A stretch of 64,000 nucleotides of DNA from Branchiostoma floridae (Eukaryota > Chordata > Leptocardii > Amphioxiformes > Branchiostomatidae). The stretch's first letter is position 1; each line of letters begins with the position of its first letter. The stretch lies in the NCBI RefSeq assembly GCF_000003815.2, contig NC_049986.1, positions 7,227,165 through 7,291,164 on the forward strand. The letters run 5' to 3'. The notes below the pieces were generated by a model that worked only from the letters and a program-made list of their open reading frames with translations, was not told where the DNA came from and did no database searches. Both the position numbers and the translations under genes were made by a program. Shown piece after piece: positions 21,701 to 63,995 of the stretch.

Positions 21701-24700
21701 TGAAAATCTTAATACAATCGTCATGTCTCTTGCTCGGATCATTGCAGAAACATAATGTGAAATCGATATGTCTGATATGACAGTTATTCTGGGACCCGGA
21801 TACGTACAAGAAGATCATATCTTCACGTCCAAATGAAAGATGAGTTCTTTTTCTCCTATAGTAGCTGAATACTGCCCCCTAATAGTTCATGATATTCTGA
21901 CCCTGACGTTTATTCGACATCTTGAGGTTAAACAGAAACTATGGTCGTGTGAAAATAGTAGGCCGTAGGCCACATTCTCCGTGACGTACCAGTGCGTTTA
22001 GTTTTTGTAATCATAAGTGATGATAATAAGACAGTCAGCCATTCAACCACATCTGTAAGTTGCCTCACATCAGTTAACAACCATATATAATAAGCCGATT
22101 ACATTGATCGTCCCAGACCGATAAATAAGAACGAACAGGAGGAAAAAATAAATCGTAGTCATAACATTGCTCATAGCTTGCCATGGCAACGTATGCATAA
22201 CACAATCCTCAAAACACAACCCACAAAAGACCCAAGGTCCTTATGTGTGAAAGGTCCTTATGTGTCAAACCTACATATAACAGATACAATCCTGTTCTGT
22301 TTTGGCGTGTAGTGTTTTATTTGATATGGTGTTAGGCAAGAAGATCCTCAGGATTCTGCGTAAACACTTGTTTTGAAAAACATTGAGCTTGTGTTTGATG
22401 TGTGCCGTCTCCTTCCAGCACTCTGCTCCGTACAGGAGTACACTAAGCACGTTGCTCTTGTAGATCTTTAGTTTTGTGCTGATATTTATGCTGGTACTTC
22501 TCCATACAGGCCTGAGGATTGCAAAAGCTTGGTTAGCTTTGCTTATTCTCGTATTCACTTCTTTGGTGCAGTCACCGTCATCAGTTTCTTTACTGACCAA
22601 ATAAGTGAATTCCTTGACTTCTTCCAGGGGTTTTCCATTGATCAAAATGGGGTCGTTGTTTGTTGTGTTTATCATTACTTCAGTCTTTCCCTCGTTTACT
22701 TTCAGACCGATAGTATTAGATATCCGGCTCAGATTTTCTGTTTTTGCTCGAACATCGACATGTCTATTTGGCAGGAGACCCAAACCATCTGCATAGTCGA
22801 GGTCTTCTAGGATGTTGTTAATTGTCCATTGCAATTGTATGCCCCTTCTTTTGTCTTGTGTGGTGTTTTTCATCAACCAGTCAATTGCAAGGGAAAAGAG
22901 TTGTGGGGACAATATGCATCCTTGTTTTACCCCGGTGTTTACATGGAAAGAGTCAGTGAGGGCATTGTTATGTATGACTCTGCAGGAGAAGTTTTCATAC
23001 AGGGATTTGATAATGTTTACAATTTTCGTTGGAATGCCATAATGTCTGAGGATTTTCCAGAGTGAGTCACGATGCAGGCTGTCGAAGGCTTTTTCGAAAT
23101 CGATAAAAACCACATAAAGGGAGCTGTTCCATTCCTGAGTCTGTTCTAATATCTGTCTTAGCACAAAAATATGGTCTGTACAAGAGCGGCCTTTTCTAAA
23201 GCCAGCTTGTTCGGTCCTCAGAATGGCATCTATAGCTGCTGAGATGCGTCGGAGGATGATGCGACTGAACACTTTGCAGGTAAGTGATAACAGAGTAATA
23301 CCCCTCCAGTTGTTACAGTTTTGTAGACTTCCTTTCTTGGGTATTTTAACAATCGAACCAGTTTTCCACTCGTCAGGTATGGTTTCACTGTTCCATATTT
23401 CTTGGAAGATGTCTCTGAGAATTTTGGGGGTTATTTGATCTTCTGCCTTTAGCATTTCAGGGCATACCCCCTTATGTGTGAAACCTACATATAATAGATA
23501 CAATCTTTCCGATGTCATTCCGTTGCATTTGAGCTGACTTTACATAAAGGGGGGAGGTTTACGAAACAAGAAAAATTCTCGACCATACAGTAAAGTGTAC
23601 AAAGCAGCTGTTGAATGAGCCCAAATATTCCGTAGATTGGAAAAAAGTATCGGAAAACAGATAACTAATGTCATAGAATGCCAAAGTAAATATAAAGTCA
23701 AAGAATAAGATGTGAAAGAACAAAAATAAAAAAGCTATTGTTCGTAGTTGTATGTACCATTACAGAAAATTTAGGTACAGGTACAGGTCTAGGTCCGGCC
23801 TGCCCTGATTGTAACTTTTGAATTGGCGATACTCAAAACAATGGTCAATTTCGCTACAAATGAATCTACTTGGTGGATTATCCGACTCCCAATGGCGTTT
23901 TAAAATCTCATCTCCATTTAATCAAGGCTAACTGTCTCTGCACCTTTGACTGTAGAAACTTGCTACAAATGACTATAGACTCTACTCGACTTCGCTCATG
24001 TTATTTTCTTGGCCCGGTAAGCGCCATAACGCCTGACGATATAGTGTGTTGATTTCCTAATCGGCAAAACCCGTTTAATTGATTTTCTAAGTGTTTTTCG
24101 GACTGGTCCAAGAAGAAGAAAAACGGATTTGTACTGTACCGGTCCCTACACCTAATTATTGATATACCATATTACGTGTGTGTTCAGTCCTGTGCTGTAA
24201 CGTGGTTTCATACTGAAGGTAACTTTTTTGTGGGGCCAAACTTGTTTTATTTGCGTGCTCCCAGCAGTTTGGGGGATACCAGGGGATGTCATCCGTATAA
24301 TCAAATCAAAATGACCTACGCTGAAGCCATGAGTGAAGGGGATCCGCAAGCCAATGCCTGTCCCATTGAAATGTACACAAAAAGGCACAGAAAGACAGTG
24401 GCAATAACTCACCTTTATGACGTTACTGGCATACAGACTTACCCTCATATGAAAGCCCATCATCTCAGCTGAGATAAAACACCACTGTCATTAAAAATTG
24501 TACGGCATAACTTGCAAAAAAATACCACAAAACCCTTCCACCCCCGCAAACGTATAACCACCAAGGGAAGGGGCCCTGGCACAACCAGGAAATAGTCCCA
24601 ACTTTATATCCAACTTTATATCCCATGATAACCACAAAAACTCAGATTTTCGGCCATAATCAGAAAGTAGAAACCCTCCCCAGTCACATTGACCTCAAAA

Positions 24701-27700: not shown

Positions 27701-30700
27701 NNNNNNNNNNNNNNNNNNNNNNNNNNNNNNNNNNNNNNNNNNNNNNNNNNNNNNNNNNNNNNNNNNNNNNNNNNNNNNNNNNNNNNNNNNNNNNNNNNNN
27801 NNNNNNNNNNNNNNNNNNNNNNNNNNNNNNNNNNNNNNACTGGGCTGAGAGGGGGCAGAGGTCATCCATTGTAGGACGCTGCTCTGTTTTGCATTTCAAG
27901 GGTTGAGACAGACAGTGGTGTCCATTTTGTCTGAGTGGAAATTTCCACTTGGGCTTGCTCCTTGGCAAATTTAGCAATTTAGTTTGAGAACCAGTAGCGC
28001 CCGGAGAGGCTGCCTAGTTTATTGGTTCGTACTTGGTTGTTCTTTAAGCGTGTGAGTTTGGTTACACGCCTTCAGTTACGTTACGTTTTCAACCCTTGCT
28101 GCCCGTGGAGTCCGTGGAGGCTGTCTGATTTACAGGTAGCGTTTTTCAGGGTCTCTGGCAGCTCTGTCTGCTCATATTTTGGTTCCTTTTTAGTTTTATT
28201 TGGTTCTAGTTAAAGCTGCATTATGAAGCGTCCTCTTTCAATAAAAGTTGCCGTGTACCGTGATCGGTTAACGTATGAACAAGTGTTTACTTTGCTGAGC
28301 GAGGTTTCGGCTCCCATGAGCAGCATTCAGGCTGTTCAGTCTCTGGGACCAAACTCATTCGACGTGTCATTTTCCTCGGTACACGAGCGTACATTGTATG
28401 CGGGGAAACTGTCTGGTTTAGACGCCGTGGATGTGTCATCTTACGCGGCGGCGGAGATAATTGTCACGGCCACAAGAATTCCGTATGAGCTCGATGACAA
28501 CTATGTCAGGAACTGGTTAAATCAATACTGTGCCGTCATCACGTCCCGTATGGTAACATACCGGGACAGACCAACCATCAAAAATGGGAACCGGCAATAC
28601 AAAGTAGTTTTAAAGCCGGGATGCAATATTCCATCAGCATGGAAAATGTTTGACGGGAGGATGGTTTTCTTCAGGTATGTGGGGCAGCCCCGTACCTGCT
28701 TGAGATGCAACCAGGAAGGCCATGAGTCGGCAAATTGTGCAGTAACATTTTGCAACAAATGCCAATCCATTGGGCATTTGGCCATGGATTGTACCAACGA
28801 TGTTGTGTGCCTCAGTTGCAGGGCAGAGGGACATACGGCCCGCCGTTGTCCCCTGTCCTTCGCAAACAGAATTAAGATGGGAGCCAGTTGGGCTAAGAGC
28901 CAAGAGCTCCCGGCAGGTGTGAGTCAGGTCCGTGAACACCATGATGGAGGGGTTCCTCAGGCTGTAAATAAGCCTGATCGGTCGGAACTGGCCCATGTTT
29001 CTGACGCAGAGTCTGATGTATCTGATCCTGTTTCGCCTCCAGGTCACCCTGGCAGTGTGGACCCGGGTACTTCTTCGGCTGTGAAGTCGGATGTTTCTTC
29101 TCCGGTCGCGGAGTCGGAGGTTTCTCCTCCGGTCGCGGTGGTTGAGCCGTCTGAGGACGTGCTGTCGGAGGCCGCTCCTTCTCTGACCAAGTTTTCTCCG
29201 GTCGCGGTGGTTGAGCCGTCTGGGGACTTGCTGTCGGAGGCCGCTCCTTCTCTGGCCAAGCCTGGCCTTTCTTCCTCTTCTAGCGAGCAGGTGCCCTCAA
29301 CATCTGCTGCTCCGGTACCGGCCCCTCGCGCCCGGTCCCAGAGAAGGAGGCGTAAGGCGGCCAGTCCTATCCGACCTGTTACTCGTCGGTACATGTGTCA
29401 GGGTTGTGAGTTGGATTACACAATCACTCTGGAGGTGGTGTCTTGTCATCAGTGCAAGGCAGACATAACTCCAGAATCTGCTCTCCTTGCTTTCTGTGAG
29501 GGCCCAGTTTGTCAAAGCGATAATCGCCTCTTTCTTTGTCAGAGCTGCCATGATGGCAACTCTGATATTGCTGACAAAGATTCCAGGAAAAGGGGTAGGG
29601 GTGATTCCAGTGAGGGATCTGCCTCTGCAAAGACTTTGTCGAAAGGAAAAAAGATTCGTAAGGAGCCGGATTCCGACTCCAGTCTTGTTATCGAGGAGTT
29701 TCCCTCGGAGAGTCTTCGTTCTGTGGACGGTAACGAGTCTGACTCTACTGTTGGCTCCAGAAGCCTCATCATTGATGAGGATACTTCGGATGCCTCTCAG
29801 GCTCCAAGTCCCGATTTGGTAGCAAAGGCGAGAGCCATTGTCATCTCCTCTGATTTGTACAAGAATAAGGCTGTCTTTGTGTGCAACCAGTTTATTTCTC
29901 ATGGTTGTGACGAACTCTTGCATAGTTTTAGGTCTTTGAAATCTCACCTCGCAAAGGCGCATGGCATCTCCGGGGACATTGTGCCTTGTAAGGTTGGTAA
30001 TTGTTCGAGGTTTTTTAAAACCACCATGTTATGTCTCAAGCACCTCTACAATGTCCACCCCCAATTTGTTAACCGAATTGGTGTGGAAGGAATTGATGAT
30101 CTGTACCACTAATTCCTCACATTCCGATGTTGTTTGACATTCCTTCTCTATGTAGCCTCATGGTTCTTATTGCTACACTCAATGTCTGTGGGCTCCGTAG
30201 TCCGCAGAAGAGGAGGCAGGTTTTCGGCTTTTGCCGTCAACATAAATTTGACGTTGTTTGCCTCCAAGAGTGCCATGTTTCGTCAACATCTGAAGCGGTG
30301 CTCTGGGAGAAGGAATGGGGAGGCCAAGCGTTTTGGGCATTGGGCTCCTCCCAATCTAGAGGTGTGGGTATTTTACTCTCTCCATCTTTCAATTTTGATG
30401 TGGTTAAAAAGTCTTGTGACGACAGTGGGCGTGTTGTCTGTGTCGTCTTGTCCGATGGTGCGCGTAATTTCAAAGTTTGTAACATGTATGCTCCTAACAT
30501 TTCTGCGGAGCGTACTGGATTTTTTAAAAATTTGTATAAGTTTCTGTCGGGGGCTGAGCCCCTTATTTTGTGCGGTGATTTTAACTGCGTTGAAGATGTT
30601 GATATTGATAAGAGGGGCGGGAACCCGGCTCATGGTAGTGGCGGTTCCACCGTTTTAAAAGACATTTGCGCCGATTTTAATGTGCATGACTCTTGGAGAC

Positions 30701-33700
30701 ATGAGAATCCTTCTAAAAAGGTCTTCACTTGGAGACAGCCGACCAAAGGTATTGCCTGTCGGCTGGACCGATTTTATTCGTCTAAATACCTCGTCGTTTC
30801 AAACTACTGTTTTTTACCCGCATATTTTACAGACCATGACTGTGTGTCCTTGTCAATTTTACCGGATGTGAAGAAGAAGCCTGGCTTGTGGAAATGTAAT
30901 GTCTCGATTTTAAAAAGAGACAAAGTTTTAAATGATTTTAAACTCGCTTTTAACAATTGGAAGACTTTGAAACCAGGTTTTCCTTCTTTGCGAGCCTGGT
31001 GGGACGATGTAAAGGCTAGAACTCGCTCTCTCCTGATCAGAATTTCTTGTGAACTGGCTAGGGAGAGACGAGAGTCCATGTTTACCTTGAATAATGAACT
31101 TGTCGATCTCACCAACAAGATGAACGACGGGGCCTCCTCGGCGGACATCTTGCGTAGGTATGAATGTACTAAGTCTTCCTTGTCCGAGTTGTCCGCTGAG
31201 GAGGCTCGCGGTGCTTTTGTTCGGTCCAGAGTCAAGCAATTTGTCGAGGGGGAAAAATGTACCTCGTATTTTGTAAGCCAGGCCTCTTCCCGAAGTAGGC
31301 AGCGACGCATTTCTTCGGTCAGAGATTCTACTGGACGTGTTGTCCAAGATGACGAGGAGATTTTAGACGTTTTTAAGCTATTTTATGAAGACCTTTTTAG
31401 TGCTGAGCCTATTGATAAGTGTGAGGCGAATAACCTTTGTAACAATTTAGAAGGGTCTTTGGATCCTGATGAAGTCTCTTCATTAGAAGGTCCTCTTTCA
31501 TTGGATGAGCTTTGGGCTGCATTGCGCAGTATGGAGAATAATAAGTCCCCTGGCAGTGACGGTCTCCCGAAGGAATTTTATGTCGCTTTCTGGGACGTCA
31601 TTGCCGGGGATCTCCTCTCAGTTTTTGAGGAAGTTTTTTCTTCTGGCGAGCTCTCTCAGAGCCAGAGTTTTGGTGTTATTACTCTCCTTCCAAAAAAAGG
31701 GGACCCTCTGGACCCGAAGAACCGTCGCCCCATCTCTTTGTTAAATTGCGATTATGAGATTCTTGCAAAGGTCCTTAACAATAGGCTTAAGATGGTTGCC
31801 GCCTCGGTCATCAGTCCTGACCAGACATGCGGTATACCAGGCCGGTCGATACAATGTAACCTACTTTTGATGAGAGATATCATTACATATGTTAATATGA
31901 ATAACTTTGACTGTGCGATCATTTCTCTGGATCAGGCCAAGGCCTTTGATAGAGTGAATATTGATTTTCTTCACTTGACTCTTGCGAAGATGGGTTTTGG
32001 CCCGGTTTTTCGCAAATGGGTTGCTATATTGTACCACAACATTACCAGTGCTGTTCTCGTCAATGGGTCGCTATCATCTTCTTTTTCTCTCTCAAGAGGT
32101 GTTCGGCAGGGGTGCCCTATGTCACCCCTGCTGTACGCAATTTCTTTGGAGCCATTTGCCGCTACAGTAAGGGCCGACGCTGCGATTCACGGCCTCAGGT
32201 TGCCTGGTGGCCGTGAAGTTAAGATCTCGCAGTATGCGGACGATAACTCGGCTATTGTTACAACCGATGAGTCGATCCGCCGGCTCTTTGCTGTTATTGA
32301 CATGTATAACAGAGGTTCCGGGTCTCTTTTAAATCTTGACAAATGTATGGGTCTCTGGCTAGGTAGTTGGAGGAAAAGACTCGATTGTCCGAAGAATTTT
32401 AAATGGACATCTGTATCCATACGTTTATTGGGAGGTACTTTTGGAAGTGTTAATATGCCTTTAGTCAACTGGAGGGAGAGGCAAGCTAAGTTTGAAGCGG
32501 TTCTGCGAAGGTGGGACAGCTTCTCTTTATCCTTCGCTGGCAAGGTTGTCGTCGTTAATAACCTTGCTTTATCTACTTTGTGGTATATTGCTCCTGTATT
32601 TTCTCCTCCCGAGTCAGTCGTCAAGGACATTACGAGAGCCGTCTTTAAGTTTTTCTGGAGTTCTCGTGCAGAACTGGTCTCTAGAAAGACAGTTATGCTA
32701 CCTTTGGACAAAGGTGGATGGGATCTCATTGATTTTGGAGTGAAGGCCAATTGTTTTTATTGTCGGCCGTTTACCAATATTCTTGACCGGCCGGATCTTC
32801 CATGGGTCCAGTTGGCAAAATATTGGCTGGTTTTTTTTGCCCGTCGTTTTGAACCATCATCGTGGTCTAACAGTTCCCCCCACTCTCCTGAGGCTCCACC
32901 TCACTATTCTTTGATGCGGAAGCTCACCTTGGAATTTGTTAATGCTTCTGCTTCGAAGACTTGCGACAAGATATGCACCGTGCAGTCTTTGTACAAAGCT
33001 GCCATTTTAGCTCGTTCTCATACCCCTTCCGCTTGTTTTTNNNNNNNNNNNNNNNNNNNNNNNNNNNNNNNNNNNNNNNNNNNNNNNNNNNNNNNNNNNN
33101 NNNNNNNNNNNNNNNNNNNNNNNNNNNNNNNNNNNNNNNNNNNNNNNNNNAACTACTTGACTTGTTCGATTTGGCACAGAACTCCTTCCCCTCTTTGTCC
33201 GAGGAGAAACTGTAGAGATACGGAGACCGTTACCCATGCCATCTGGTCTTGTGGCGAGGTGCTCCTGACCTGGACTTGGGTCGAAGGGTTCATTAGGCGA
33301 TGGGTGGTCTCTAGTTTTCGTGTTTCTCGCGCGGTCGCTCTCTATGGTGTTATGTCGTCTACCCTGAAGAAGTGTAAGAGAGATGTCTGCACCTACATTT
33401 TGGCCGTCGCTCGGTCTAAGATTTGGTGGTCCAGGTGTCAGGCTCTCTTTGACAATAATTTCGTATCTCACATTGAGCTGGTGTCTCTAATCAAGGAGGC
33501 TCTTAGGTTTAAACTCAAGATGGAGTTTGTTCGACTTGGTTCTGAAAGTTTCTTGGCTGAGTGGTGCCAATCTGTTAGATGGGCAAGTGTGCGGACGGGA
33601 GTTTTGGTTCTACGTTTTTAGAGTCCTTGTCGTAGTAGTCTTTGTTTGGTGCTACAGTCTGTCTTTGCTATTGGTGGATTGTCTGTTAGATGTTCAGTGT

Positions 33701-38386: not shown

Positions 38387-39175
38387 GAATCTGGCGACAG
38401 GCATAAACCACCTCACATAGCCTCCAAGATCAGTGACAGGAGCGATCTGACGTGATCGTTTAGAGGGCCTGGTCAGCTGGTTTCACCTACCGAACAATCA
38501 TTCTGGGAACTGAATTGTTACATTTTTGGCTTCTATTTGAATTCTTCGTTTCTTCTCAGGCGACAGCCATTTTTTAGGGGGTGAAATCCCACCCGTGGCT
38601 ATAATAATCTTCTAAGCCATCACCAATACGAATTTTGCTGTGCATCTTTTGTAAAACATTACTGGGGTTGTGGAAAAATGAAGGAACCAGTGATGTTGTC
38701 TATAATTTGCTCCATTTCAAGGCCTGAAGTCAGGCGACAGCATTTCGACATTAAAATGAGAACGAGCCACATGTGTTTGTGTGTGGATAGTCTTCAGCAC
38801 CAGGGACAAACTCGAAATATACTACTACTTGTACTGGCATGTGCTCCCCTTAAGCAACAGGATATATACAGTGGGTTGAAATCAACAGCAAAGTAAGTCA
38901 TTTCATTCATATTATTTCACCAGGACAGAAAAGTAAGGTACACTTAGGTAGCTTACATCTGCTGACGTCGAATTTGAAGATTTTAACTAAAAATTTTGTT
39001 TTCAGTATTTTTTTTGTCTGTACTGTGGGTCTGACTGTCCCAGCCTTGACTATCTGCCATATTTGCGCCCTCGGGCGATAGGGAATGGTTCACTATATTC
39101 TTGTCGAACTGGTTACGGGTCAAATTTGAAAAGTGAAGGACGCGAAAGCCGAGGACTGGGTCAAACTTGAACAAG

Positions 39176-42019
39176 ATGGCATCCAACCTAAACAAGGCGT
39201 TTTTCTTCCTCTTTACCTGTTTGATCTTATCAGAGTCGATTCTCGCAACCGTGCTGTTGTCGGTGACCGTACCAGAGAACGCTCGCACGGGGGAGACTGT
39301 CCTTAACGTCGGGTCAGCAGTAGGGAAAAGTCTCGGTGAGGAAGCTCGCTGTGAAATCTTCGACGGGAACAAGAACGGACGCTTCCGTGTTGTTTATAGC
39401 ACACCCGACTGTGTGATCCAAGTTGCACGTCCGTTGGAATACAGCGTGGAGCCGACCTATAACCTCACGTTGAACGTCACTAGAAGGTCATCACCAGAGC
39501 AGCTGTATGTATATGTACATGTACGACTCCAAGACGTGGAGGGATATCCTCCTATTTATAACAACACCTGCGAAATGCCTATCCGGAGTGCGCAGCAGAA
39601 GAGTCGGTCAGGTGAGTTGATCTTCGACGTGAAAACGATGGCGGAAGCTGTAACCATACCTGGCGGAGTGGTTTATTACAATGACTACACGTTTATTGAA
39701 ACCCTATCTTCAGATGTTTACGCTTTCAGCTACACCACCTCAAATGACTGCACGGTAAAGGTTGTATCAGACGTCGGACATGCAGTACAAATCAGACAGT
39801 ATCAGGATCTTTGGAACGCAAACATGAGGTGCTTTAGATGTTTTCCTTCTCGATATAGCACGTCTAGCTTTCAATTTGGAATTCTTAACAGACATAGCGG
39901 GGCTCCTACGTGCACGTTTATCGAGAACAACGATCTGCCTATACCTCGGACTAAGTCACACTTTAGACTTGTCGCTTTGTTAACTCTAGCTTCAACAGGA
40001 AGCCATCAATTCACATGCGAGCTTCCTGACGACTTTTCTTTCACCACCAAACTTGGTACAGGCGTGATAGGTGAAATACTCCATCCTTCTGTTGAGGTTC
40101 ACTTCCAGCCGGTTGGATGTCCACCGGACAAATACGGCCTGTTGTGTGATCAAAATTGTACCTGTGAGAATGGCGCCCGCTGCCATGGGTTAAACGGGGC
40201 CTGTAAGTGTCAGCCTGGATGGCAAGGTGACGTCTGCGACATTCCTCACAGTACTGTTGTGATCACAGCGACACCTAGCGACTCGCGAAGGATTTACATC
40301 ACCGGCTCTGTAATTCTGCGTTGCAAGGCTTTCCATCTGACTGTCGAGAACATGATGTGGACATTTCCTAATAAAACAGAAAAGTGGCTGCAAGGAGCTG
40401 ACGAAGATCGGGTAAGGATCGAAAGCGTACAGTCCGAACACAACGGTACCTACGAATGTACTGTTGTAACAGACAAGAGGTGGATCTTTCGTACTAGTTA
40501 TGAGCTTCAAGCCGTCGCTTGTCCTCCAGACAAAACAGGCGAACTGTGTGCAGAGTCGTGCGACTGTCCGAGTGGTGCGAGCTGTGACAGGTGGGTTGGC
40601 TGTGTCTGTCCCCCAGGGTGGGCGGGAACCAGGTGTCAGACACCATGTCAAGCTGGTACATACGGGCAGGGGTGCAGCAGTGATTGCCGCTGTGAGAATC
40701 ACGCCAGGTGCGCTCCTATCGACGGCTGGTGTAACTGCACCGAGGGCTGGTTCGGCCGACACTGCAACATTCCCTGCCCCACTGGTCTGTACGGATGGAG
40801 ATGTCGGCACGACTGTGGCTGTAAGAACAACGCCACGTGTCACCACGTGGATGGAAGCTGCGCCTGCGAGCCGCCATGGACTGGACAGTTGTGTGACGTC
40901 ATGCAAACGGACACATCACCATTCCCGTTGCTACTCCAGATCTTAATACCGACGATACTGACCCTGCTGATCGTGGCAGCATTGATGGCACTCTACAAAA
41001 GGAACAGAGCTAATCTGGCGGGAGTTAATAATGCCACAGAGGAGGAGAAAAGGGCTCTCCTGGAACTAAGGAATATGGAAGAAGACCTGGCACAAAGTTT
41101 GCAGCCGGGTTGGCTCAACCGTTGGGAAAAGAGACCAAACGATCTGACTACGGGTGACTTGATCGGACTGGGTGCGTTTGCGCAGATCAGGAAGGGACAT
41201 CTCCGTACTGCTGGCGCTAAAGTCGCGGTAGCCGTGAAGTCCGTCCGAGGGGAAGACCGACAATTCTATCGAGCTTTCTGTCGGGAGGTCGCTTCACTCA
41301 TAGCCGTGCACCAAACAGATGGACATGCCAACATCATCAGGCTGTACGGAGTCATCACCAAGTCAACACCGAAGTGTATTCTCCTGGAATATGCTGCTAA
41401 GGGCGACCTCTCGTTGATTCTAAAACAGCAACCGAGACAGAATGGTGCTATCCCCTTGGGTGACCTCCTTCGCTATGCCGTCCACATATCATGTGCCCTG
41501 AAGGAGCTCCGACGTCTGCGCATCGCTCACGGTGACGTGGCCGCCCGAAACGTTCTCGTCAGCGGTGATGACGTAGCCAAACTTGCTGACTTTGGTCTGG
41601 CCCATGACGTATACACAGCTACTGCTTACGTTTCCGCTGACCATGAGGAGAAAGGGGCGGCCGAGCTCTTGCCTCTGAAGTGGATGGCTCTGGAGTCGCT
41701 GGAGTCTCGCAAGTTCACGTGCGAGAGCGACACGTGGTCGTTCGGCGTGCTGCTGTGGGAGATCGCCGCGTTCGGGGATGAACCCGTCTATGCGCACGAG
41801 ATCCAACTGAGTTGTCCCAGGTTGGTCGGGATCCTGAGACAGGGATATCGTCTGCAGAAACCACCCGGGTGTCCGGACAGACTGTATGACGTCATGAAGT
41901 CGTGTTGGCGGGAAGAACCGTCGACAAGACCTGAGCCGATAGAACTGGAGCAAAAGCTGACAGAATGTCGTCAAGAAATAGATCCCTTACTGGTTATGGA
42001 GAAGGAGACGTTAGTTTAG
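39176..42019 (+). CDS. Intronless receptor tyrosine kinase with cadherin-like, EGF-like and Ig domains
   Basis: 947 residues in one open frame. ATG at 39176 (context AAGATGG) precedes a signal peptide (1-24). Residues about 28-110 (VTVPENARTGETVLNV) look cadherin-like. EGF-like repeats lie at about 314-355 (CENGARCHGLNGACKC) and 448-575, with an Ig-like domain between (about 360-445, ending HNGTYECTV). A transmembrane helix is at about 582-602. The kinase spans about 655-930: glycine loop GLGAFAQIRKG, Lys688 in VAVKSV, HGDVAARN at 785-792, DFG at 805-807, then LPLKWMALES and SDTWSFGVLLWE. HGD replaces HRD, and the third glycine of the loop is Ala. Catalytic Asp, Asn, Lys and DFG remain, so activity is plausible. 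The EGF/Ig/kinase layout recalls Tie receptors, but the cadherin-like N-terminus does not. A candidate poly(A) signal AATAAA lies at 42907-42912. Confidence 0.9.
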   Translation: MASNLNKAFFFLFTCLILSESILATVLLSVTVPENARTGETVLNVGSAVGKSLGEEARCEIFDGNKNGRFRVVYSTPDCVIQVARPLEYSVEPTYNLTLNVTRRSSPEQLYVYVHVRLQDVEGYPPIYNNTCEMPIRSAQQKSRSGELIFDVKTMAEAVTIPGGVVYYNDYTFIETLSSDVYAFSYTTSNDCTVKVVSDVGHAVQIRQYQDLWNANMRCFRCFPSRYSTSSFQFGILNRHSGAPTCTFIENNDLPIPRTKSHFRLVALLTLASTGSHQFTCELPDDFSFTTKLGTGVIGEILHPSVEVHFQPVGCPPDKYGLLCDQNCTCENGARCHGLNGACKCQPGWQGDVCDIPHSTVVITATPSDSRRIYITGSVILRCKAFHLTVENMMWTFPNKTEKWLQGADEDRVRIESVQSEHNGTYECTVVTDKRWIFRTSYELQAVACPPDKTGELCAESCDCPSGASCDRWVGCVCPPGWAGTRCQTPCQAGTYGQGCSSDCRCENHARCAPIDGWCNCTEGWFGRHCNIPCPTGLYGWRCRHDCGCKNNATCHHVDGSCACEPPWTGQLCDVMQTDTSPFPLLLQILIPTILTLLIVAALMALYKRNRANLAGVNNATEEEKRALLELRNMEEDLAQSLQPGWLNRWEKRPNDLTTGDLIGLGAFAQIRKGHLRTAGAKVAVAVKSVRGEDRQFYRAFCREVASLIAVHQTDGHANIIRLYGVITKSTPKCILLEYAAKGDLSLILKQQPRQNGAIPLGDLLRYAVHISCALKELRRLRIAHGDVAARNVLVSGDDVAKLADFGLAHDVYTATAYVSADHEEKGAAELLPLKWMALESLESRKFTCESDTWSFGVLLWEIAAFGDEPVYAHEIQLSCPRLVGILRQGYRLQKPPGCPDRLYDVMKSCWREEPSTRPEPIELEQKLTECRQEIDPLLVMEKETLV

Positions 42020-61400: not shown

Positions 61401-61686
61401 TGATTTGTGCAATGTTGTCAATGTCATTACTTTGTTATTAGTCACTAGAAAGCTTTTAATGATGTCAAGCTGTAAAAAGGGTTGAACGAAATATGGGAAC
61501 CAGTGGGCGTAAACAATCATCGCTTGCGGTCCTGTCAATCACCATGACTGACGGCGACAAAGGAGGGCGTCCGGGATAGCCAGGATGCGCTGTGGCTTAG
61601 AGCGGTCGGCATTGAAGCACATTTTGGATAGATCACCGACATATTGGCGCCACTTGCTGTGGTAACTCGTTCCCATGGCAGGCTGC

Positions 61687-63310
61687 CTATGAAGCACCAT
61701 ATACGGAATAACCGCCACTGAAGACGTGCTTCTCGTTCCCAACCAAGGCGGGAAAGAACGCACAGATCGTGATGGCCTCCCCTGTAGGCATTGCGTAGTG
61801 CGGGTCGTTCTTGTTCATCAAGAAAGCCGTACCCTTGGGATGGAACTCCGCTTCTTCTTTCCCTTCCTCCCACACGTATTTGCCGTTTCCTACAGAAAGT
61901 AATGGTAAAATTGATAACTGTGGTGATAAGAGAAGACCTTTACGAACTAAACTTAGTACTTTGATACATTTGGTCATTTGCACAGAAAATGAGTAAATGC
62001 TACAATTGAAAATGGATAGGATTTCAGTGAAGGAGAAAAGCTACGAAATCGCAGTGGTAAATGATGGGAATTTCATATTTGTGACATATACATAAAGTTT
62101 TGTAGATGGCATGTGCACCACCTTCTAATGTCATGCCGGTGACATGTACAGTTGATATCAACCCACTCTCCATACGGCCCCAAAAAGGCTATGGGACTTC
62201 CCGGTTTACATTCTGTCTGTCTGTCCTTTGTGACACTGCCAAAATAAGTTAATAACTTGAGAGCAGTGTCACATTGTCCTCGTCTGTCTTAAAGTAAAAT
62301 TTAAGATACAAACAGCTGTATAGAGATGGGTATCAAAAGTGATAATAACTTGCGATTGTGTGTGATCACGGAAATGAAAGAACTGCCAATCATAAGCTTA
62401 TCGTTGTGATGAGTGTTTACTGTTTACTTTGGAATTTTTATCTTTGCTTTCAGACAAGATATGTCCATAGCAACGTAACCAAACATACCACTGATATAGT
62501 AGCAGGCTTCTTTGTGGTGTTTGTACCACATGGGGACTCCCTTTTCTGTATCGTCTCCCATCATGATGGTCGTGTTGGTCACCGTGATCGGAAAACTGTC
62601 ATCTCTAAGCAGGAATCTTCGGCTGTGGCCGCTCCCGAAGTCGACATCCCGATCGGTTCCGATGATCTCCGAGAGTGACCGAACAACCACTCCGTCTTTC
62701 GAGGGGTTGTCGTCTTGGCAGTAGAGACAGTACAGCCTCATGGGGTCATCCGAGGTCACTGTAACCTTAAGAACAAAACAAAAAGCAAAAAAAAAAAGAT
62801 TTAATACGAATATTCTTGATGACACAATACAAGACATAGCTATGCTTCTTTGTTAACAAAGAAGTAGCATTATTAGTACCGGTTCTTACTGGAGTTGTTC
62901 GTCATTTGTAGTACTTCTTTGTCATATTTTCAAGGAAAATCCGTGTCTTCCTGGCCCCTCCGTCCGTAAAAATTAAACACCTGTAACCATTCATTATATT
63001 TTGTACATACATGTGTGATCACCTTGCACTTAACAGCCGACGAAAACGCCATGAAGAAGTCCGGAGTGACTTTAAACTCCCTCCCGTCCTCCAGACTACA
63101 GCGCCCCCTACCGGAGATACAGTAGTACATGTGGTTACTGGCCAAACATTCACCAGGGTGCAGCTCGACTTCGTTCTGGTCCCGAGTCAGAACGATCTCG
63201 TACGCCGTGTAGCCCATCTCATCCGCCGGGGACACCAGCTCTTTCCCCCGAAGGACTGAGGTGTTTGGCACGGGGGCTATCGGAACATCTACGGTGTTAC
63301 GGACGATCAT
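61687..63310 (-). CDS. Tandem ectoine-synthase (EctC)-type cupin protein, 3 exons, complete
   Basis: Exons 63023-63310, 62489-62765 and 61687-61889 join at GT/AG sites (phases 0 and 1) into 768 nt, 255 residues. The second half (about 121-255) reads as EctC: VVVRSLSEIIGTDRDV, SRRFLLRDDSFPITVTNTTI, WYKHHKEACYYISGNGKYVW, GTAFLMNKNDPHY and CAFFPALVGNEKHVFSGGYS. EctC cyclises N-gamma-acetyl-diaminobutyrate to the osmolyte ectoine in bacteria; it is about 130 residues. The first half (1-120) is a diverged second copy: MIVRN, MGYTAYEIVL, MYYCISGRGRCSLEDG. Known metal ligands are a Glu, a Tyr and a His. Half two has Glu182, Phe211 in place of Tyr, and His219; half one has His60, Met87, Cys95. No EctA or EctB is in the window. 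Substrate is therefore uncertain. The start is the first ATG, giving the family-typical MIVRN. Confidence 0.9.
61890..62488. other. Intron 2 of the ectoine-synthase-like gene
   Basis: A short non-coding stretch with canonical ends (GTATGT at 62488-62483, TGTAG at the acceptor). Nothing else recognised. Confidence 0.7.
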
Positions 63311-63382
63311 GGCGAGTTAGCGGTCAGTGTAGCAGTGTATGGCTGCGAAAATAACAAAATATTGACGAGAATAAATCGGCCA

Positions 63383-63995
63383 GTACCTTTTGAAAAGGGG
63401 TGTGCATGTAATACACTTTTTATAGCATTACCATTTACTTAGAGATAAATCATCATAAAAGATTAATAATCTTGATAATGATGAATTAAGGAAACCTCGC
63501 ACATAATTAAATCGCTTCTTAATCCAGCCAACGCAGCTGCTATGAAAATAGCAAAGAAGACTGGTAAGTTTTACGCACCTGTTTCTGAGTCTTTTTGAGA
63601 GCGAACAACCTTTGGAAGCTGCCTAAACCGGTCTAAACCGACCCTTTTGCACACGGTGGTGTCTTGTTGTGAGAATAACAATAACAATGCCTTTAGCACC
63701 TGTACCTTGTGAAAAGGGGTGCGTATGTGATACACTTTTTATTACATTACCATTAACTTAAAGATAAATAATAATATTAATGATATTTAAGTAAGGAAAT
63801 CTCACATATAATGATTTAGCTTCTTAATGTAGCCAATGCAGTTGCTATGAAAATAGCAAAGAAGACTGGTAAATTTTACGCACCTGCTTCTGAGCCTTTT
63901 TGAGAGCGAACAACCTTTGGCAGCTGTCGAAACCGGTCTAAACCGACCCATTCGCACTTAGCGGTGTCTGATTGTATGTGAGAATAACAAAGTGG
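63383..63995. repeat. Tandem duplication upstream of the ectoine-synthase-like gene, possible alternative first exons
   Basis: Two copies, about 63383-63690 and 63702-63995, share AAAAGGGGTG, TAATACACTTTTTAT-like, GCTATGAAAATAGCAAAGAA, GAGCGAACAACCTTTGG and AAACCGGTCTAAACCGACCC. On the minus strand each contains CTCAGAARCAG before GTGCGTAAAA, a good 5' splice site (exon ends 63579 and 63884). A matching acceptor TTTTCGCAG lies at about 63350-63342, 32-40 nt upstream of the ATG. A 5' noncoding exon and its promoter could thus be present twice. This is inferred from sequence only. Confidence 0.55.

Follow-up and report, generated by a model that had tools for sequence, protein, structure and literature searches.

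Gene structure at the locus

The window analyzed here, a 64,000-nucleotide stretch of a 25.6 Mb contig in the Branchiostoma floridae assembly (513.4 Mb, 431 contigs), carries near its end an EctC-like gene on the minus strand, whose three exons join into an open coding sequence of 768 nt including the stop codon (255 aa). Its parts and immediate surroundings, in window coordinates, are listed below; C8b, C14, and C11 denote paralogous loci of the same genome.

63370..63975, no strand assigned: diverged direct repeats with a spacing of 305-319 nt, directly upstream of the gene and extending beyond the window end
63023..63310, minus strand: exon 1, residues 1-96, most of the decayed N-terminal EctC domain (D1); open frame, GT donor
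62766..63022, minus strand: intron 1, phase 0, GT-AG; position common to C8b, C14, and C11
62489..62765, minus strand: exon 2, residues 97-189, the end of D1 and the first half of the C-terminal EctC domain (D2)
62489..62693, minus strand: exon 2 part of D2, which starts at about residue 121, matches PF06339, and runs on into exon 3
62639-62637, minus strand: codon of Phe139, in exon 2
62510-62508, minus strand: codon of Glu182, in exon 2
61890..62488, minus strand: intron 2, phase 1, GT-AG; position common to C8b, C14, and C11
61687..61889, minus strand: exon 3, residue 189 to the stop codon, second half of D2
61824-61822, minus strand: codon of Phe211 (Tyr-84 column), in exon 3
61800-61798, minus strand: codon of His219 (His-92 column), in exon 3
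61455..61460, minus strand: ATTAAA, a possible poly(A) signal (sequence word only)
61194 and 61135 (start positions), minus strand: AATAAA (sequence words only)

For intron 1 there is an alternative in-frame donor 12 nt downstream (CAT/GTATGT), by eye stronger than the modeled one (AAG/GTGATC), the use of which may give a protein longer by four residues (VITH); homology favors the donor at 63022, and the alignment with a bacterial homolog spans both exon junctions. The beginning of exon 1 recurs as a partial copy with an in-frame stop approximately 240-320 bases past the window end, at a distance of some 1 kb on the upstream side of the gene (L020:5908-5984).

Of four other open frames of the window, judged by Pfam alone, one codes for a receptor tyrosine kinase, one for a TIL domain, and two for reverse transcriptases. 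The kinase is encoded by an intronless 960-aa frame on the plus strand (39137-42019) with further matches to cadherin, Ig, and EGF-type domains. The LINE-type frames, of which the one at 28214-33621 is broken by a run of N and the other lies at 22271-23539, combine reverse transcriptase and endonuclease domains.

Paralogous loci in the amphioxus genome

A search of the genome for the family recovered seven exon-level matches that resolve into four loci on three large contigs, viz., the window gene, C8b on the same contig, C11, and C14. The models of C8b (four exons, one intron more than the window gene) and C14 (three exons) are open throughout. In C11, whose stretch of 9.5 kb (L017) contains 1454 N, exons 2 and 3 are open and exon 1 carries a one-base frameshift, which marks either a pseudogene or an assembly error. 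Pairwise dN/dS values (NG86) are 0.22 for the window gene versus C8b, 0.14 for the window gene versus C14, and 0.26 for C8b versus C14, at dS values of 1.4 to 2.9 that are near saturation; the corresponding value for exons 2-3 of C11 versus C14 is 0.38.

The homology of this family to bacteria only raises the question of bacterial contamination or a chimeric contig. However, the size of the contig and the three further loci with the same two intron positions make contamination of this locus very unlikely, and the 9 kb surrounding the gene are free of N; we accordingly discard this explanation. The initial annotation, which had described two canonical introns and had argued against a bacterial contaminant, is thus borne out on both counts.

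The protein combines two EctC-type domains

The Pfam Ectoine_synth profile (PF06339) matches residues 123-250 of the window protein with E = 4.9e-30 and 104.8 bits, well above its cut-off of 27, and the NCBIfam ectoine synthase model (NF009806) covers the same stretch with 105.1 bits, below its cut-off of 128. All four PDB sequences matched at E <1e-11 are ectoine synthases. The EctC signature that had been noticed in the C-terminal half is therefore confirmed by profile search. The N-terminal region also belongs here: residues 1-118 alone match NF009806 (E = 2.1e-4, profile positions 1-107), and in profile-profile comparisons with hhalign the animal D1 matches both a set of EctC sequences (probability 96, E = 1.3e-9) and the D1 of the bacterial two-domain proteins described below (probability 98, E = 7.4e-14). 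By these matches, the window protein is composed of two EctC-type domains, the N-terminal one of which is decayed. We term two-domain EctC-type proteins of this kind EctC2.

Bacterial EctC2 proteins and their gene neighborhoods

A scan of a genome collection with one peptide pattern, which favors orphan-type EctC, gave 330 confirmed bacterial relatives, and 10 of the best 80 of these encode a two-domain EctC2. The 10 loci come from seven genomes labeled Stappia, one metagenome-assembled genome (MAG) labeled Rhodobacteraceae, one Mesorhizobium, and one Salinarimonadaceae MAG (L046), whose EctC2 is the closest to the animal ones and shares 33% identity with the window protein across 248 aligned positions (E = 2e-40). 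EctC2 is rare in the sampled bacteria: of 385 genomes sampled from the class one has a full-length version, as do five of 397 at the level of the order; the center genome is counted in both samples, and an overlap with the above scan is possible.

In Mesorhizobium Root554 the EctC2 gene is followed by a gene for a Lys/Orn N-monooxygenase (PF13434, E = 2.6e-120), and the operon further codes for an IucA/IucC synthetase with an FhuF domain (8.6e-74) and a 2OG-Fe(II) oxygenase (WelO5 model, 2.3e-11), with an MFS transporter gene on the opposite strand beside it. The monooxygenase and the synthetase occur together in 8 of the 10 EctC2 loci, the oxygenase in nine, and the transporter in seven, some of these loci ending early. 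The oxygenase is the sole operon partner in one locus (L029), and the L046 gene occurs without any partner. By its predicted domain content, the EctC2 neighborhood in most of the bacterial loci is thus a siderophore-type operon. An EctB-like gene (queried with the frame whose 53-aa start best matches the diaminobutyrate transaminase and EctB models) was seen within the sampled flanks of none of the 10 EctC2 and none of the 59 orphan-type loci, versus 3 of 13 W21-type loci. A 2026 paper on sponge-associated Stappia reports one antiSMASH cluster typed as 'PKS-like, ectoine, NRPS-independent-siderophore' for which the product is predicted as 'Ectoine and desferrioxamine relative' (PMC12997852); this cluster may correspond to the EctC2 operon.

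A structure model of a Stappia EctC2 has a mean pLDDT of 66.6, with D1 predicted well and D2 poorly, and in the PDB it is closest to other bicupins (1sfn, TMq 0.63; the ureidoglycine aminohydrolase 4e2q, TMq 0.60), with the EctC structure 5ono at rank 38 (TMq 0.32); the model supports a predicted bicupin and nothing further.

EctC-type domains also turned up in other settings. Six alphaproteobacterial records (L221-L225 and L228) encode another kind of tandem EctC in which both domains are intact; L222 packs four of these frames into a 7 kb stretch, and L221 has three. EctC-type proteins of viruses, for some of which the annotation reads ectoine synthase/ParB, occur in two IMG/VR contigs (L125 and L109) and in Pseudoalteromonas phage XCL1123 (L026); the L125 protein matches PF06339 with E = 3.7e-44 and has a ParB_N stretch at 25.4 bits, slightly below the cut-off of 26.3, and in many of the IMG/VR matches the EctC domain lies close to the start of a frame some 300 aa long. 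In the plasmid records L022-L025, an orphan EctC gene adjoins genes of natural-product type, annotated as NRPS, tryptophan halogenase, ketosynthases, and biotin-carboxylase-type ligases.

Phylogeny of the two domains

For the D2 tree, 95 rows were reduced to 93 by removal of two identical ones and then to 87 by leaving out six (*_gen) from genomes already represented; L189, L191, and L195 contributed no row after the motif filter, and viral and phage EctC were left out of all trees. In this tree, the four animal and 10 bacterial EctC2 D2 domains form a single clade (support 100/98), inside which the animal (99/87) and bacterial (100/95) sequences each group together. The same D2 domains are separated, together with the orphan type, from the 14 W21-type rows by a 100/98 split, which leads us to reject an origin of D2 from the EctC of a canonical ect operon. 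The trees that include D1 draw on 5 of the 10 bacterial EctC2 proteins and on a selection from the single-domain rows. The first of them, with 50 rows, recovers one clade of three animal and five bacterial D1 domains (100/99) and another clade of D2 domains (100/99). The same D1-D1 and D2-D2 pairings are obtained in a 68-row tree that adds the other tandem EctC proteins and eight single-domain matches from the scan that had yielded them; there, the intact tandems (22 domains from 11 open frames) form a clade of their own (100/99), on which ground a kinship with EctC2 is rejected. The place of D1 among the remaining EctC domains shifts from near the W21-type in the 50-row tree to the orphan side in the 68-row tree, and the tree program issued long-branch warnings for all three trees.

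Since D1 pairs with D1 and D2 with D2 across animals and bacteria, these trees indicate that the domain duplication predates the split between the animal and the bacterial EctC2 genes. The initial annotation had proposed an old horizontal acquisition that was then duplicated and given introns. Of this scenario, the origin in a bacterial family and the introns stand; duplication after the transfer is rejected in view of the two-domain homologs in Alphaproteobacteria together with the grouping of the animal D1 with the bacterial one. In trees with this genome as the sole eukaryote, the EctC2 clade is placed among bacterial EctC with its animal and bacterial members as sister groups, a topology that fits either direction of transfer and sets no date for it. 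A reverse transfer, from an animal or another eukaryote into Alphaproteobacteria, would accommodate this sister relationship and the rarity of EctC2 in the sampled bacteria. However, the clade lies inside the bacterial part of the EctC tree and the bacterial gene is mostly found within a dedicated operon, and we see only a slim chance for it. As the clade is surrounded by bacterial sequences, we infer instead that the transfer probably proceeded from bacteria to the animal.

Active site

The roles of the active-site residues of EctC have been described in a structural study (PMC6344544). Seven of the 10 published residues, viz., Ser-23, Arg-25, Thr-40, Tyr-52, Glu-57, His-92, and Phe-106, are kept in D2 of the window protein, and the same columns are kept in all four animal D2 domains. 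Among the iron ligands (Glu-57, Tyr-84, and His-92), all three are retained in C14 and C11; the window copy and C8b retain the Glu and the His, and have Phe in place of Tyr-84. The same Phe is seen in 10 of 10 bacterial EctC2 proteins, and Tyr-84 is kept in all 59 orphan-type rows. Recent decay of the window copy would hence not be the simplest reading of its Phe, as this residue is found throughout the bacterial EctC2 set; yet, C14 and C11 have Tyr, so the replacement is not fixed in the clade. At Trp-21 the window D2 has Gly, and at the shifted Trp column typical of the orphan type it has Phe, being the only animal copy without the shifted Trp, which is present in C8b, C14, and C11. Its Asn-38 is replaced by Thr, a residue that is common at this column (52 of 59 orphan and 6 of 14 W21-type rows). 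In D1, all three iron ligands are replaced: the Glu-57 and His-92 columns are occupied by His60 and Cys95 in all three animal D1 domains, and by Gln (10/10) and Val (7/10), respectively, in the bacterial EctC2 D1.

The replacement of the Tyr ligand and the Trp in the window copy, along with the loss of all three ligands of D1, could be taken to mean that the protein is a non-catalytic bicupin that binds a small molecule or a metal as a sensor or buffer. We consider this distinctly unlikely given that the seven active-site columns are kept in every animal D2 and that bacterial EctC2, which likewise has the Phe, remains part of a biosynthetic operon.

Pathway genes and predicted function

The amphioxus genome was searched exon by exon for pathway genes, a procedure of lower sensitivity that a split EctA or EctB may escape and that did find EctC exons of 29 to 50 bits. 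In this exon-wise search, neither EctA (sole match 20.3 bits versus a cut-off of 120.6) nor EctB (weak aminotransferase exons, best 31.7 versus 552.2) was found above cut-off, and neither IucA/IucC (PF04183) nor the Lys/Orn monooxygenase (PF13434) had a match at E 0.001. The lack of matches to the latter two suggests that the bacterial pathway has not been rebuilt in the animal.

The initial annotation had suggested ectoine and a role in marine osmotic physiology. With EctA and EctB not found above cut-off in the exon-wise search and, in the window copy, the Tyr iron ligand replaced by Phe and the catalytic Trp lost, a home-made ectoine pathway in the animal appears unlikely. A working ectoine synthase could still provide ectoine for osmoprotection if its substrate N-gamma-ADABA came from food, microbes, or undetected EctA/EctB activities. 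In this regard, the window protein exceeds the PF06339 cut-off and retains most of the active site, C14 retains the Tyr, and a Halomonas ectC mutant produced ectoine with the solitary EctC of P. syringae, albeit in a dataset that a review describes as not yet conclusive (PMC5924519). On the other hand, Ala mutants of Tyr-84 and of the Trp retain 15.1% and 9.7% of the activity, respectively (the replacing residue being Ala and not Phe; PMC6344544), the window copy has neither residue, and its D2 groups with EctC2, away from the W21-type EctC. We hence regard such an ectoine synthase as unlikely. The accompanying caveat of the initial annotation, that the true substrate may differ, is the better guess, given the orphan-type relatives with their siderophore-type operon and the lack of EctA or EctB matches above cut-off in the exon-wise search.

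The lineage and the two-domain architecture are shared between the amphioxus and bacterial EctC2 proteins. The reading that we favor, with reasonable though by no means full confidence, is that a bacterial EctC2 gene entered an ancestor of amphioxus, gained spliceosomal introns, and spread to what are now four loci. EctC is a dimer, and D1, devoid of a metal site, would serve as a built-in structural partner replacing the second subunit. D2 is predicted to be the catalytic barrel, a metal-dependent cupin that, by analogy to EctC, would eliminate (or add) water where an amide carbonyl meets an amine or hydroxylamine, thereby closing (or opening) a ring. Rather than animal-made N-gamma-acetyl-diaminobutyrate, the substrate would probably be a small related diamino compound, N-acylated or N-hydroxylated, that comes from the animal itself, from food, or from microbes. 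More speculatively, though this is unlikely, the animal bicupin might be a retained cyclase of the bacterial siderophore pathway that closes a small diamino compound into a cyclic amidine or a cyclic hydroxamate-type ring, the product being a metal-binding or signaling metabolite not so far known from animals and D1 being re-used via its new His60/Cys95 pair.

Comparison with known systems and significance

The closest known counterparts are the EctC2 proteins of Stappia, Mesorhizobium Root554, and the Salinarimonadaceae MAG, which the animal protein resembles in its length, its two EctC-type domains with a decayed D1, the domain-wise grouping in the trees, and, for the window copy and C8b, the Phe at the Tyr-84 column. 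It differs from them in the introns of the animal copies, the Phe at the shifted Trp column of the window copy, the Tyr of C14 and C11, the His60 and Cys95 of the animal D1, and the absence of IucA/IucC and Lys/Orn monooxygenase matches in the genome search. With the EctC of ect operons, e.g., that of P. lautus (5ONM/5ONN/5ONO), it has in common the cupin fold family and the seven conserved active-site columns; however, the P. lautus enzyme has one domain with Trp at 21 and Tyr at 84 and is encoded next to ectA and ectB, whereas the window protein has two domains with Gly and Phe at these positions, and no EctA or EctB above cut-off. Orphan (solitary) bacterial EctC proteins, the function of which is called unclear in the structural paper (PMC6344544), likewise have no ectB nearby and share the shifted-Trp pattern DVxWGxGxSRR with three of the four animal D2 domains, but have a single domain and, in all 59 rows, Tyr-84. 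Outside this family, the vertebrate IRBP gene, which has been reported as bacterial-derived (PMC10450429), offers a parallel in that a bacterial enzyme gene was taken up in a chordate lineage. Unlike the present case, in which the two domains pre-exist in bacteria, IRBP belongs to the S41 peptidase family and its domain duplications are said in that report to postdate the transfer.

Two reviews citing Harding et al. place ectA- and ectC-related sequences in eukaryotes, Branchiostoma floridae and Saccoglossus kowalevskii among them (PMC5924519, PMC5796728), and the B. floridae sequence very probably belongs to the same family as the window gene. Hence, the presence of an ectC-related sequence in this animal is already published; the passages of these reviews that concern it say nothing of its domains, copy number, introns, or a sister group in bacteria, and a literature search that covered few subscription journals found no description of a two-domain EctC lineage or of its siderophore context.

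These results caution that EctC homology alone is insufficient for predicting ectoine. They recast the 'ectoine genes in a chordate' as the animal member of a rare two-domain lineage whose bacterial kin mostly reside in a siderophore-type operon, and thereby offer a lead on the role of one kind of orphan EctC, a question left by the structural paper (PMC6344544).
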